A stretch of DNA of 64,000 bases, taken from assembly GCA_018660265.1 (NCBI GenBank), contig JABJKS010000072.1, forward strand, positions 1-64,000, written 5' to 3'. Below are positions 8,991-54,814 of this stretch, piece by piece (position 1 is the first letter of the stretch; every line of letters starts with the position of its first letter). This DNA comes from Rhodospirillaceae bacterium. GTDB taxonomy: Bacteria > Pseudomonadota > Alphaproteobacteria > GCA-2731375. The position numbers and the translations under genes were made by a program. The notes under the pieces are model-generated. The model was not told where the DNA came from and did no database searches. It worked only from the letters and a program-made list of their open reading frames with translations.

Positions 8991-10013
8991 CTATTTTTTG
9001 CCCATCAGATCGCGGCAATCATCCTTGGCGACCGTTTCTTTTGCCAGAACGTCGATCGGTGTGTACAGGGCGAACGGGCGCTCACCAGGTTCCACCTTCA
9101 TTTGCGCCATGGCTTGGATGGCGTTGACCACATCACGGCCCTGCAAATAGCTGTCATAGCCATAATGCTTGTCCAGGATACCTGTTTGCAAGGAATCACA
9201 AACAGGGCGTGAATTGCTGCCCGAGCCATAGACCAGGACTTCACCGGTTTTGCCGGCTTCCTTAATGGCCTGGCCGGAACCCATCATCATGATGCCCCAG
9301 ACACCTACCGTGGCACACAGATCGGGATGCTGTTGCAACACAGCCGCCGTGATGTCATGCGCCTTGGTCGCGTCCCACTGGGCGGCCTGATCGTTGACCA
9401 CGTTGATTTTGCCCGAGGCCTTAAAGGCTTTCATCAGGCCCACGTTGAACCAGACATTGGCAGCCGCGGTTAATTCGCCTTGTACGATGGCGACCTTGCC
9501 GCCTTTGGCAGCGCATTGTTTGACGATATCATCGCCCACTTCCTGGCCATGGCTAACCCAGTCAACGCCGACGAAACCAGAGGAGCGATAGTTGGACGCC
9601 ATGTTCAGCTGGATCACATGGGTGCCGTTTTGTTCAGCCTTACGAAACAATTTTGCGAAAACCTGAACGTCAGGATTCTGCACGACCAGATAGTCGACCT
9701 TTTCCGAAATCAGGGCCGAGATCGCCTGCGACATGGCGTTCATATTCCAGGCCGGATCCTTCACCACATAGTTCATACCGATAGCCGTCGCCGCATCGCG
9801 GATACCCGCATCCCAGAAATCGGAGAGGGGCAGGCCCAGGGAAATCGGGACAAAGGCGACCGTCTTGCCGTTAAGCGCATCGACGAAATCGCTGCGCACC
9901 ATGCGCTCTGTCTTGCCGCTGATTTTACCGGCGGCGATGGCACCACCCGCGGCCAGGGCCACTGTTGCCGCCATGACCGTTACGGCCAGACCTTTAAGGA
10001 TATTCCGTTTCAT
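8991..10013 (-). CDS. Periplasmic sugar-binding protein of the ABC importer
   Basis: 340-residue solute-binding protein of the Peripla_BP_4 (ribose/galactose-binding) family. The signal peptide is MKRNILKGLAV... to GGAIAAGK. Family features include VAFVPISLGLPLSDFWDAG, LISEKVDYLVVQNPD and WGIMMMGSGQAIKEAG. ATG 10013 is preferred over upstream in-frame starts because GGGAGAG lies 6 nt before it and it gives a proper signal peptide. It lies between the two permease genes and is the specificity subunit; the ligand (sugar, polyol or sugar acid) cannot be read from sequence. Confidence 0.9.
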   Translation of the reverse strand: MKRNILKGLAVTVMAATVALAAGGAIAAGKISGKTERMVRSDFVDALNGKTVAFVPISLGLPLSDFWDAGIRDAATAIGMNYVVKDPAWNMNAMSQAISALISEKVDYLVVQNPDVQVFAKLFRKAEQNGTHVIQLNMASNYRSSGFVGVDWVSHGQEVGDDIVKQCAAKGGKVAIVQGELTAAANVWFNVGLMKAFKASGKINVVNDQAAQWDATKAHDITAAVLQQHPDLCATVGVWGIMMMGSGQAIKEAGKTGEVLVYGSGSNSRPVCDSLQTGILDKHYGYDSYLQGRDVVNAIQAMAQMKVEPGERPFALYTPIDVLAKETVAKDDCRDLMGKK

Positions 10014-11785: not shown

Positions 11786-13561
11786 TTGCGAAGAATGGGC
11801 CTCCAAAGTGAGCGGGAAGAACGCCGTAGTGTTGGAAAGCTGGGTCAAATCCTGCCTTTCATTTCACCTTATAAATGGATCGTGGTCGCCGCCGGGGTTG
11901 CCTTGGTGGTATCTGCCGGCTCAGTCCTGGCTATTGGGCAGGCAATTCGTCGGGTCATTGACCACGGATTTGGCAGCGAGCAGGCCCTGATCGATCAGTA
12001 TTTCATCGCCCTGTTAGGCGTTGTCATTGTTTTGGCAGCGGCTACTTTTGCCCGTTACTTTCTTGTCACTTGGCTGGGCGAACGGATTATCGCTGACCTT
12101 CGCGCCGCGGTTTACAGCCATATCATTGGCCTTAGTCCGGCATTTTTTGAAACCATGCGGACCGGCGAAGTACTCTCCCGCCTAACGGCGGATACCACCC
12201 TGATACAAACAGTTATCGGGTCCACGGCGTCCATTGCCCTGCGAAATCTTCTCATGTTCATAGGCGGCAGTGTGCTTTTGGTGGTATCCAGCCCCAAATT
12301 GACAGGCTTTGTCTTCGCATTGTTGCCGGTCGTCATCCTGCCAATCATGGTCTTTGGCCGCAAGGTCCGCCGTCTGTCGCGTACCAGCCAGGACCGTATC
12401 GCCGATATCTCCAGCTATGCCGAAGAAAGCCTGACCGCCATCCAGGTGGTACAGGCGTTTTGCCACGAAGCGGTTGATCGATTGCGCTTTTCAAGCGTTA
12501 CGGGGGAGGCTTTTTCGGTCGCCATCGAACGGACCCGGGCGCGGGCCTGGTTGACCGCTTTGGTGATGCTACTGATTTTCGGTGCGGTTGACTTGGTGGT
12601 CTGGATTGGTGCCAAGGACGTCATCGGCGGCGAGATGAGCGGCGGACAGCTGGCTGCCTTCGTCTTTTACGCGATTATCGTTGCCGGCGCTGTTGGTGCC
12701 TTGGCGGAGGTCTATGGCGAATTGCAGCGCGCGGCAGGTGCAGCGGAACGATTGATGGAATTGCTGGCGGTTCAGCCGGGCATAGCCGTCGCAAATCCGA
12801 CGACGCCATTGCCCGCAATGGGCAGCGTCGCCATTAGCTTTAGGGATGTGACGTTCCAATACCCCTCTCGTCCCGAACTGCCCGCCCTTAAGGATTTCAG
12901 CCTGGATGTAGCCCCGGGCGAGACAATTGCCCTGGTTGGCCCATCGGGTGCGGGCAAGACCACGGTTTTTCAGTTGCTGTTGCGTTTTTATGACCCTCAG
13001 GCCGGTCAGGTCATGCTCGACGGGGTCGATTTGCGTCAGGCGGACCCGTTGGAGGTGCGATCGCGGATCGGTCTGGTGCCGCAAGACCCGGTGATTTTTG
13101 CCGCCAATGCACGGGAGAATATCCGCTATAGCCGCCCAGATGCTGATGACGATCAATTGCGCGCCGCCGCCGATGCCGCCAACGCATTGGGTTTCATCGA
13201 CGAGTTGCCGGACGGTCTCGATACATTCCTGGGCGAACGCGGGGTACGCTTATCTGGCGGCCAGCGGCAACGATTGTCCATCGCCCGGGCGATCCTGGCC
13301 AATCCACCTATTCTGCTTTTGGACGAAGCGACATCGTCGCTGGATGCGGAGTCTGAACGCGCCGTTCAAAATGCCCTTGATGGCCTGATGGCAGACCGGA
13401 CCACGATAGTCATTGCCCATCGTTTGGCCACGGTGCTAAAGGCGGATCGCATTATCGTCATGGAAAACGGCACGGTTGTCGAAACCGGTCGCCATGAAGA
13501 CCTTGTCAATCGAGACGGTCTCTACGCCCGCTTCGCCGCGTTACAGTTCAATACCCACTAG
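11786..13561 (+). CDS. MsbA/multidrug-type ABC exporter (half transporter)
   Basis: 591-residue half exporter: a six-helix membrane domain (about residues 25-310) followed by one nucleotide-binding domain with Walker A (VGPSGAGKTTV), Q-loop (IGLVPQDPVIF), signature LSGGQRQRLSIARA, Walker B (ILLLDEATSSLD) and switch His (VIAHRL). Homodimers of this class export lipids, toxins or drugs. The start is uncertain: TTG 11786 is preceded by AAAGGA, while ATG 11795 in the same frame has no clear site. It is monocistronic, with a decayed transposase and a palindromic element upstream. Confidence 0.9.
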   Translation: MRRMGLQSEREERRSVGKLGQILPFISPYKWIVVAAGVALVVSAGSVLAIGQAIRRVIDHGFGSEQALIDQYFIALLGVVIVLAAATFARYFLVTWLGERIIADLRAAVYSHIIGLSPAFFETMRTGEVLSRLTADTTLIQTVIGSTASIALRNLLMFIGGSVLLVVSSPKLTGFVFALLPVVILPIMVFGRKVRRLSRTSQDRIADISSYAEESLTAIQVVQAFCHEAVDRLRFSSVTGEAFSVAIERTRARAWLTALVMLLIFGAVDLVVWIGAKDVIGGEMSGGQLAAFVFYAIIVAGAVGALAEVYGELQRAAGAAERLMELLAVQPGIAVANPTTPLPAMGSVAISFRDVTFQYPSRPELPALKDFSLDVAPGETIALVGPSGAGKTTVFQLLLRFYDPQAGQVMLDGVDLRQADPLEVRSRIGLVPQDPVIFAANARENIRYSRPDADDDQLRAAADAANALGFIDELPDGLDTFLGERGVRLSGGQRQRLSIARAILANPPILLLDEATSSLDAESERAVQNALDGLMADRTTIVIAHRLATVLKADRIIVMENGTVVETGRHEDLVNRDGLYARFAALQFNTH

Positions 13562-52868: not shown

Positions 52869-53444
52869 TTAACCAAAACGTTTCCGAGCCCGGTTTTGCG
52901 CCCATCTCCGCGCATCTGTTTTTCGAATTCTAAATGTAAGCAACGGTTCACTGACCCCAAAATGCTCGCACGCTTGTCTAGTGTTGCTGATTTCTTCGAC
53001 GGCATATAGTGCAGCTGGTCGTGGGACTAAAAGAGCGAAACCTAAATCATGCGCTTCACGTTCTAACAATTTGTCAAAATTTCGACATCCGTCCGTCAAC
53101 ATTGGCGGCTTGGGCGGGTGGCCAAGGATGATATGTGCAAGCTCGTGGGCGATATTAGAGTTTTGGCGATAGTGATGGTGTGAATCATTGTGTACTATTT
53201 CTCGTCTAGTCCCATGCGCCAATGTGGCCGCCGAAAACTCGTCCCGCCATTTCGTCGAGAATTGAATTTTTCTTTCCCGCGTGATTGTTGGATGCTCGGA
53301 AAGCGCAATGACCGGTACACATAGGAATTCGGCAAGAAGAAAGGGGTTAAGAGGGGCATGCTCCGAGAGGTTTAGCTCCTTCCTGAACTCAAGCGCGTAC
53401 TCCTCCGATTCTTTCACAAATCCCTGCCGATGTCTGAGGGCCAA
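52869..53444 (-). CDS. ImmA/IrrE-family metallopeptidase
   Basis: 191 residues. The zinc site is H100-E-L-A-H104 in SNIAHELAHIILGH, with EREAHDLGFALLVPRPA downstream supplying the third ligand region; this is the DUF955/ImmA/IrrE fold. ImmA-type peptidases cleave a partner Xre-type repressor to relieve repression. The partner is encoded immediately upstream (1-bp gap). The start appears to be TTG 53444; GTG 53417 is an alternative. AT-rich compared with the mutase genes next to it, as expected for an accessory islet. Confidence 0.85.
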   Translation of the reverse strand: MALRHRQGFVKESEEYALEFRKELNLSEHAPLNPFLLAEFLCVPVIALSEHPTITRERKIQFSTKWRDEFSAATLAHGTRREIVHNDSHHHYRQNSNIAHELAHIILGHPPKPPMLTDGCRNFDKLLEREAHDLGFALLVPRPAALYAVEEISNTRQACEHFGVSEPLLTFRIRKTDARRWAQNRARKRFG

Positions 53445-53445
53445 T

Positions 53446-53799
53446 TTATTTTTTCCTCATGTGCTCGTATGCAGACTTGAGCATTGTTTCTAGGGCAATG
53501 GCACTTTCGCCACCTAAGTTCTTGTCGGCGCGCAATAAGGCAGAAATTTCAGATAATGGTTCAGGTCTTTGTTGAGGTTCATTTTCTGTCCTATAAAACA
53601 TTTTCGCATCGATACCCGACCAGCTCGCTAGCCCTGCTAGAGTATCGACATCCGGCCTTTTGCCCTGGCCCATTCGGGTCAAAGTCGACGCAGATATTTT
53701 GGCTTGATCGGCTACTTTTTTCCATGTGAGCCCCTTCGATTGCCTATGGCCATCCAGAGCGGCGTAAAAGCCTTCAGCATCAAATTTTAAATTCGACAT
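53446..53799 (-). CDS. Xre-family HTH repressor
   Basis: 117 residues. The helix-turn-helix is GLTWKKVADQAKISASTLTRMGQGKRPDVDTLAGLASWSG; the C-terminal part (ISALLRADKNLGGESAIALETML) likely dimerises or is the cleavage target. It pairs with the ImmA-type peptidase gene directly downstream. Two inverted repeats lie just upstream of its start (see the next entry), so autoregulation plus control of the divergent gene is likely. Confidence 0.87.
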   Translation of the reverse strand: MSNLKFDAEGFYAALDGHRQSKGLTWKKVADQAKISASTLTRMGQGKRPDVDTLAGLASWSGIDAKMFYRTENEPQQRPEPLSEISALLRADKNLGGESAIALETMLKSAYEHMRKK

Positions 53800-53804
53800 T
53801 TGAT

Positions 53805-53875
53805 TGATGATTTCATCATTGCAATAATCTCCTGAACGTGCAATCTATCTCAATAAGAATTGCAATATAGCAATT
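53805..53875. promoter_or_regulatory. Two operator-like inverted repeats in the Xre divergent promoter
   Basis: TGATGA-TT-TCATCA (53805-53818) is a perfect palindrome 6 nt from the Xre start. AATTGC-AATATA-GCAATT (53858-53875) has perfect 6-bp arms, and partial copies of TGCAAT occur at about 53820 and 53849. Both suit binding by a dimeric HTH repressor controlling both directions. Confidence 0.55.
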
Positions 53876-53911
53876 CGACGTCAAATTTGCAACAAAAAGG
53901 GCCGCCACACG

Positions 53912-54814
53912 ATGCAAGCAAAGACAAAAGGGATATTGCAGGAAATCGGGGCGGAATTAGACAGGGATCGGTATCCCCGAATTCATAATGGTGGGATCGT
54001 AATGCCCGGCGAAACCATCGTTTCAACTTTGAATTTGGGCAAGGAGAAAATAAATGACACATCAAGACCGGGAAGACCCCCAGCCGGATGGTGGCAAGGG
54101 TCCACCAGAGGGCAAAGGCAGGCCTTCCAACCCAGGGCGACCCGTAAGACCGCACCGATCATCTGCTCAAATCTTCAAGCACAATACGAAGGAGAGCTAG
54201 ATGCGGTTCTGGAAGCCTATTCCTCGACCAAAATCTGGCATCAAATGATAGGTTTGTGGCTGCTAACAGACAGCGCCTTACTATCTGGCCTTGGAAAGAA
54301 GGCCACATTCCTAACATTTTTTCCATTTAACGGACGGCTGCGCGTAAGAAGTTGGGGATTCTGGACGACGGCTATTTCAAGCCATTGGATTGGTCCAAGA
54401 CATACAAATTATCCAGATGGTTCAATTTGCGCGTTTGAGCCTTTAGATCAAACTTGGATTCCAAGTCATGGCCTTATCCGACTTCTCGACTTATTCAGTC
54501 TATGGGCACTACGACAGTTGCATCTTGAGGTGCTGGGTAGATGGCCCGGACGTCAGTCAGCTTTCCATCCCTACGAAAGAATGTCAGAACTAAATGATAA
54601 CGAATTCTGTGGGTGCGAGGGTGCAACCAGATTCTATGCCGATTGCTGCAAACCAAAAGACATTGCGAAAGATATAAAAGCTGAGGCGCGTGATTTTCTG
54701 CTTAAAATCCCCAAATGTGGATTGCGTAAACCGCCTGAGTTAATTTCGGAATTCATCCTCGGCAGCAAAAAACTGCCACCATCTGCCGACGAGTTGCCAC
54801 AAGCTTGGTTTTGA
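53912..54814 (+). CDS. E2-ubiquitin-conjugating-like protein with SEC-C-like Cys cluster (candidate)
   Basis: 300-codon frame; the real start is uncertain and may be nearer residue 100. From about residue 100 the sequence looks like a bacterial E2 (UBC-fold) protein: LTFFPFN, HWIGPRHTNYPDGSICAFEPLDQTWIP, with Cys173 at the position of the E2 catalytic Cys after the HP/DGSIC motif. A helical stretch (LIRLLDLFSLWALRQLHLEV) and GRWPGRQSAFHPYERMSEL follow. A C-terminal cluster, Cys233-x-Cys235 and Cys245-Cys246 (EFCGCEGATRFYADCCK), resembles a SEC-C zinc motif. No E1 or JAB gene is adjacent. Divergent from the Xre/ImmA pair. The assignment rests on motifs, not on a search. Confidence 0.5.
   Translation: MQAKTKGILQEIGAELDRDRYPRIHNGGIVMPGETIVSTLNLGKEKINDTSRPGRPPAGWWQGSTRGQRQAFQPRATRKTAPIICSNLQAQYEGELDAVLEAYSSTKIWHQMIGLWLLTDSALLSGLGKKATFLTFFPFNGRLRVRSWGFWTTAISSHWIGPRHTNYPDGSICAFEPLDQTWIPSHGLIRLLDLFSLWALRQLHLEVLGRWPGRQSAFHPYERMSELNDNEFCGCEGATRFYADCCKPKDIAKDIKAEARDFLLKIPKCGLRKPPELISEFILGSKKLPPSADELPQAWF
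54054..54200 (+). CDS. Small proline/glycine-rich ORF, 48 residues
   Basis: Reading in a different frame from the surrounding long ORF, ATG 54054 is preceded by AAGGAG at 7-nt spacing, a better site than any for the long frame. The product is polar and rich in Pro, Gly, Lys and Arg (GKGPPEGKGRPSNPGRPVRP). It ends at TAG 54200, right where the E2-like similarity begins in the other frame. It could be the relic leader of a ubiquitin-like modifier gene, or a real small protein coupled to the E2-like gene. Not recognised. Confidence 0.35.
   Translation: MTHQDREDPQPDGGKGPPEGKGRPSNPGRPVRPHRSSAQIFKHNTKES

Follow-up and report, generated by a model that had tools for sequence, protein, structure and literature searches.

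A solo E2-like gene with a nested small reading frame beside a divergent Xre-ImmA pair

How an E2 enzyme could work without an E1 or a modifier, and whether solo E2 enzymes amount to separate defence systems, are questions raised by a conserved solo E2-like gene under defence-type controllers in the 64,000-nt stretch of DNA analysed here (the window). Bacterial E2 enzymes have been described in operons with E1, deubiquitinase and ubiquitin-like (Ubl) genes (PMC1779556); an alternative setting, with a cyclase, is that of type II-short CBASS, whose E2 is reported to need no E1 (PMC11153139). Both the E2 fold and the controllers of this locus are known, and their combination and the small gene nested in the E2 frame are new to the sources searched.

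The E2-like protein and its predicted fold

The E2-like (UBC-fold) protein is encoded at 53912..54814 on the plus strand, and its 300 aa comprise an N-block, a disordered linker, an E2 domain and a SEC-C-like tail. The YPDGSICAF motif with Cys173, GRWPG and the C233xC235...C245C246 cluster, which the sequence-only reading had pointed out in this ORF, are all present. In an alignment of 24 homologues, H164, N166, D169, G170, S171 and C173 are invariant; the catalytic role proposed for Cys173 in that reading thereby falls on a fully conserved residue. The active-site motif H164-T-N166-YPDGSI-C173 (54401..54430, plus strand) resembles the canonical E2 site, HPN...C, in that His164-x-Asn166 is followed by GSI-Cys173. 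Likewise invariant in the 24 sequences are I12, G13 and D17, the WIGPRHTN..DGS.C block, W211, G213, and all four cysteines (C233, C235, C245 and C246) of the SEC-C-like CxC...CC cluster spanning C233-C246 (54608..54649, plus strand). Pfam SEC-C (PF02810) matches 6 of the 24 homologues, at best with 2.6e-4, and is without a match in the window protein itself, for which scans of Pfam, NCBIfam and PHROG returned nothing. Of the PADLOC models, almost none but those for E2 are matched by the family (best 3e-4); in 349 genomes a PADLOC E2 model gave 0 matches, the controls being likewise blank, and PDB sequence searches with the protein gave chance matches only.

An AlphaFold2 model of the protein, built on 23 homologues, reached a mean pLDDT of 77.5 and a pTM of 0.76. 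Residues 1-34, the N-block (LxxIGxxLD...P.V.NGGIV; 53912..54013, plus strand), are modelled as a confident helix and two strands with pLDDT of about 90; residues 35-79 are disordered; and residues 80-212, the UBC/E2 domain (54149..54547, plus strand), fold like an E2 into a helix, a four-strand meander and another helix, the model being weaker around 170-180. Foldseek ranked E2s first, weakly (E at least 0.1). VIA-align 2 placed two structures of the Serratia E2 from type II-short CBASS at the top (8yjy_B, Z 8.0; 8hsb_B, Z 7.3), and the other rows listed were nearly all E2, UEV and UFC1-type domains. The fold match is moderate, the best alignment covering 130 residues at 15% identity in the aligned part, and the E2/UBC assignment is made at the level of the predicted fold, the relationship resting on fold and motif together. 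A UBC fold, as suspected from the letters alone, is what the model and its structural matches point to. The Serratia marcescens CdnG-E2 (8yjy, 8hsb) shares this fold as the best structural match, whereas the window protein has in addition the N-block, the disordered linker, the SEC-C-like tail and a nested gene, and its locus holds no CD-NTase or CBASS effector.

Distribution of the locus and its conjugation partners

A tblastn search of plasmids identified three near-full-length relatives (Sulfitobacter, Sinorhizobium and Rhizobium), and a scan of species genomes added 32 loci, from Alpha-, Beta- and Gammaproteobacteria and from two 'Deltaproteobacteria' MAGs, giving 36 loci, the window and 35 others. 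In 33 of those 35 no stop interrupts the E2 frame over the matched stretch, which makes it intact in 34 of 36; the frame is under purifying selection, and the solo state recurs across four proteobacterial groups, all of which speak against the earlier description of the locus as stripped-down or degenerate. In the two remaining loci (L038 and L039) an indel breaks the E2 frame, so that two pieces are needed, and the nested small ORF is intact; this may reflect decay, an assembly error or the small gene being kept alone. On Rhizobium phaseoli/etli plasmids (H7-H13) the matches are confined to the C-terminal third of the protein and fall into two pieces; these are probably remnants.

The same-genus genomes listed had no match to the E2-like gene, and 385 sampled genomes of the class yielded only the genome's own copy and one weak match; this rarity fits a mobile islet, and identical copies do occur in different genera. 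Among viral contigs and phage records no relative of the protein was found, and at that search sensitivity it is no known phage product. The window flanks are ordinary metabolic genes by eye, with a mutase and a B12-binding protein on the left and a hydrolase on the right. At several other loci defence genes are among the neighbours, namely Gabija (GajA/GajB), a SIR2-pAgo-associated protein and AbiH; homologues thus sit beside regulators of the ImmA, CapP and WYL types and beside defence genes, the kind of neighbourhood that the sequence-only reading had anticipated. Beside the E2 locus in L012, an ORF at 12090-12878 resembles a reverse transcriptase by eye and could be a further defence gene. 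Genes for small proteins with SG.Y..RD..SGRF-like repeats adjoin the E2 gene in L002 (9900-10115) and L010 (about 9733-9996), where one lies downstream of it and the other upstream.

In agreement with the first reading, the 64,000-nt window shows no gene for an E1, a JAB or a Ubl. Elsewhere in its own genome there is one ThiF protein, of housekeeping size and on another contig, together with Prok-JAB matches that all lie on other contigs, and neither SMODS nor Multi_ubiq has a match. Across 17 host genomes SMODS matches occur in 3 and Multi_ubiq in 2; SMODS is without a match in the genome itself and 13 of the 16 others, and Multi_ubiq in 15 of the 17, this genome included. Run with phmmer against the collected loci, the JAB and Ubl representatives gave no match, a search that very divergent Ubls could escape, and two SMODS proteins returned a single ORF among all the loci, near L003. 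This CD-NTase-like ORF (L003, 14622-15683; phmmer 1e-16 against L044) is 4.7 kb from the E2 gene. On the L031 chromosome (G756:C1) the 80 kb to either side of the locus contain no ThiF match above the cut-off. The E2 gene is without a dedicated partner set of E1, JAB, Ubl and cyclase, the E1 part of this statement covering the window's own genome and L031. It has an E2-type domain in common with the Bil/Bub/6a-6e operons, but those described in PMC1779556 carry E1, JAB or Ubl components, of which none was found at the window locus.

The enzyme may alternatively serve as E2 in a conventional Ubl cascade whose E1 and Ubl partners are encoded elsewhere in the genome. A ThiF/MoeB-type housekeeping protein was present in every genome searched and could act as an E1 in trans, and Multi_ubiq loci do exist in the two genomes mentioned; but the lack of Multi_ubiq in the great majority of hosts, and the single ThiF match in both this genome and that of L018, make such a cascade quite improbable.

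Divergent regulators and a candidate operator

Divergent from the E2 gene, as the sequence-only reading had it, are genes on the minus strand for an Xre/Cro-type repressor of 117 aa (53446..53799; HTH_3, 9.2e-6) and an ImmA/IrrE-type M78 metallopeptidase of 191 aa with a putative CapP-like role (52869..53444; Peptidase_M78, 1.4e-13), whose HELAH motif is intact. The repressor gene is just upstream of immA and, by position, translationally coupled to it. Their products are 83% and 65% identical, respectively, to the homologues in Sneathiella L015, and the PADLOC capP match of the peptidase is weak (1.2e-7). A frameshift-broken Xre-ImmA fusion was ruled out for the window, the same split being present in L015 and L018.

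Both palindromes reported earlier in the intervening promoter are present. The first, GAATTGCAATATAGCAATTC (53857..53876), has exact 7-nt arms, GAATTGC-N6-GCAATTC; when the intergenic region is shuffled, an arm of at least 7 arises in 7.7% of cases. Its 16-nt core, ATTGCAATATAGCAAT, is identical in L015 at a similar distance from the xre start, and because this core is kept near a homologous xre gene, the palindrome is likely the operator. The second, TGATGATTTCATCA (53805..53818), is weaker, reads TGATGA-TT-TCATCA and is located by the xre start. Between operator and E2 gene, L015 also holds a small ORF (about 9699-9920) and a perfect 13-nt hairpin (9922-9948).

At most loci a fused XRE-ImmA protein (about 313 aa) or a split Xre and ImmA pair adjoins the E2 gene, and almost every regulator belongs to a defence 'Cap' class, whether XRE-ImmA, CapH/CapP or WYL. 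For the peptidases of L010, L013, L016, L017 and L020 the capP matches lie between 1e-46 and 7e-66, a WYL protein takes the place of Xre-ImmA in L009 and L011, and in L028 the Xre-ImmA pair is co-oriented. On the E2 tree there are at least 9 changes of regulator type as against a minimum of 4, and near-identical Roseobacter E2 genes lie beside two different regulator types. In L029-L032, L036, L037 and L040 the open frame of the fused XRE-ImmA continues upstream across the 5' part of the E2 gene, on the opposite strand, which is probably an effect of composition.

CapW and CapH+CapP are activated by ssDNA and regulate operons of the CBASS, BREX, Pycsar and Bub types, with ssDNA-triggered repressor cleavage reported for CapP (PMC13373217); according to that source, 219 of 544 Bub operons have CapW or CapH+CapP regulators. 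The E2 loci share with these controllers an adjacent HTH repressor and M78 peptidase, or a WYL protein, as well as the strong capP scores in five loci and the swapping of regulators. The window pair differs in being of a divergent type, given its weak capP score, and in that the gene it would control belongs to no known immune operon.

The same arrangement could be read as a toxin-antitoxin system of the RosmerTA (RmrA/RmrT) kind, in which an XRE-ImmA gene also stands next to a candidate effector gene: the E2-like protein would be the toxin, the divergent Xre-ImmA its antitoxin and repressor, and the small nested protein a second, fast antidote or a leader. Xre and ImmA of the window do match RmrA models, weakly, and a two-gene, mobile unit of patchy distribution would suit such a system, but RmrT is absent at E up to 1. 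The replacement of Xre-ImmA by WYL in two loci argues that the regulator is no specific antitoxin, and CapP-type regulators are transcriptional switches (PMC13373217); a toxin-antitoxin role is thus considered rather unlikely.

A small gene nested in the E2 frame and the proposed mechanism

Within the E2 gene, in the +1 frame, lies a small gene of 48 aa, MTHQDREDPQPDGGKGPPEGKGRPSNPGRPVRPHRSSAQIFKHNTKES (54054..54200, plus strand), preceded 7 nt before its ATG by the Shine-Dalgarno sequence AAGGAG (54041..54046, plus strand), which codes for K-E in the E2 frame. The nested ORF was found in 36 of 36 loci (in L038 by eye), and a Shine-Dalgarno-like motif of at least 4 nt precedes all 35 tabulated small-ORF starts at a mostly fixed spacing; in L012 the automatic choice of start differs from the conserved one. 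For the long E2 ORF itself the Shine-Dalgarno sequence is weak or none is obvious. The product is rich in Pro, Gly and Arg, in several Betaproteobacteria also in His, and has a conserved GRPV.PHRSSAQ-like core. The C-terminus varies among homologues, and a modifier attached through its last residue is on that account unlikely. Modelled alone by AlphaFold2 it takes no confident fold (pTM 0.15), and a plasmid search for a free-standing copy, with a query so short and of such low complexity that the known copies were also missed, found none.

Selection on this product is seen in the pattern of substitutions. Differences at E2 codon positions 1/2/3 are.241/.180/.336 in the N-block and.167/.133/.396 in the E2 part, and in the overlap they are.319/.131/.152, the maximum shifting to E2 position 1, the third position of small-frame codons. 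When synonymous codons of the E2 frame were reshuffled as a null, identity in the small frame exceeded it in 14 of 14 pairs (z 2.8-7.8), the pairs not being phylogenetically independent. A real gene with selection acting on its product is strongly supported by these comparisons, and the earlier suggestion of a relic small ORF does not hold for a gene that is under selection and is present in all 36 loci. The overlap corresponds to E2 residues 48-96, of which about two thirds (48-79) are in the disordered linker, where dual coding costs least. As an instance of out-of-frame dual coding in cellular genes, kept across proteobacterial classes, the nested gene is strongly supported.

It may still be that the nested ORF is a translational device which tunes translation of the E2 frame and that its peptide is functionless. 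The strong Shine-Dalgarno sequence with its mostly fixed spacing, set against the weak one of the long ORF, is what such a device would look like. A pure device would, however, keep the DNA or the frame and not the residues, and here variation gathers at third codon positions of the small frame, with amino acid identity above the synonymous null in every pair; moreover, no in-frame E2 start was seen near the small stop, leaving no obvious hand-over. We regard this explanation as unlikely.

A different product would result if a -1 frameshift fused the small ORF into the E2 domain, so that there would be no nested pair. The small ORF does lie in +1, the right relation for a -1 shift, and its stop falls at the start of the E2 domain. 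Opposed to this are the frame-0 N-block, which is conserved, coding and confidently folded, and the E2 frame, which is stop-free through the whole overlap in 20 of 20 representatives, an openness that, were the small ORF the sole frame read, would have a per-locus probability of 0.000 to 0.17 (codon usage being estimated from the same gene and the loci not being independent). A four-sequence DNA alignment inspected by eye showed no conserved slippery heptamer, and a frameshift fusion is judged most unlikely. With frame 0 open, and with no in-frame E2 restart seen ahead of the E2 domain after the small ORF, translation appears to run through the whole of frame 0, with a second protein encoded within.

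Taken as two transcription units, one regulatory and one encoding a solo E2-type enzyme with a nested small partner, the locus would be a self-contained, stress-inducible defence-type module, a reading which we favour with moderate conviction. The Xre repressor and ImmA peptidase would constitute a damage-sensing regulator that silences the divergent gene. Upon DNA damage or infection ImmA would become active and, by analogy with CapH/CapP, cleave the repressor, as the sequence-only reading also had it, allowing the divergent promoter to fire. Two proteins would then be made from the overlapping frames. The E2-like protein may act without a dedicated E1, by forming a thioester or acyl intermediate at Cys173, and is likened in this independence to the type II-short CBASS E2 as that is described in PMC11153139. 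The strong internal ribosome site would yield the disordered 48-aa protein in fixed proportion, as an obligate partner of the E2, either a regulator or an acceptor. Catalysis, this partner role and an antiphage outcome are what we infer from the arrangement. As a long shot, the dual-coded gene may even specify a minimal conjugation pair, in which an E1-independent E2 is accompanied by a linker-nested small protein that is charged, modified or attached; if true, this would be a ubiquitin-like system in a single gene, switched on by DNA damage.

The nested gene also defeats annotation. The Sulfitobacter record has no feature annotated at the E2/nested locus, and the R. etli record has the nested ORF, as WP_157700430.1, together with a truncated E2.
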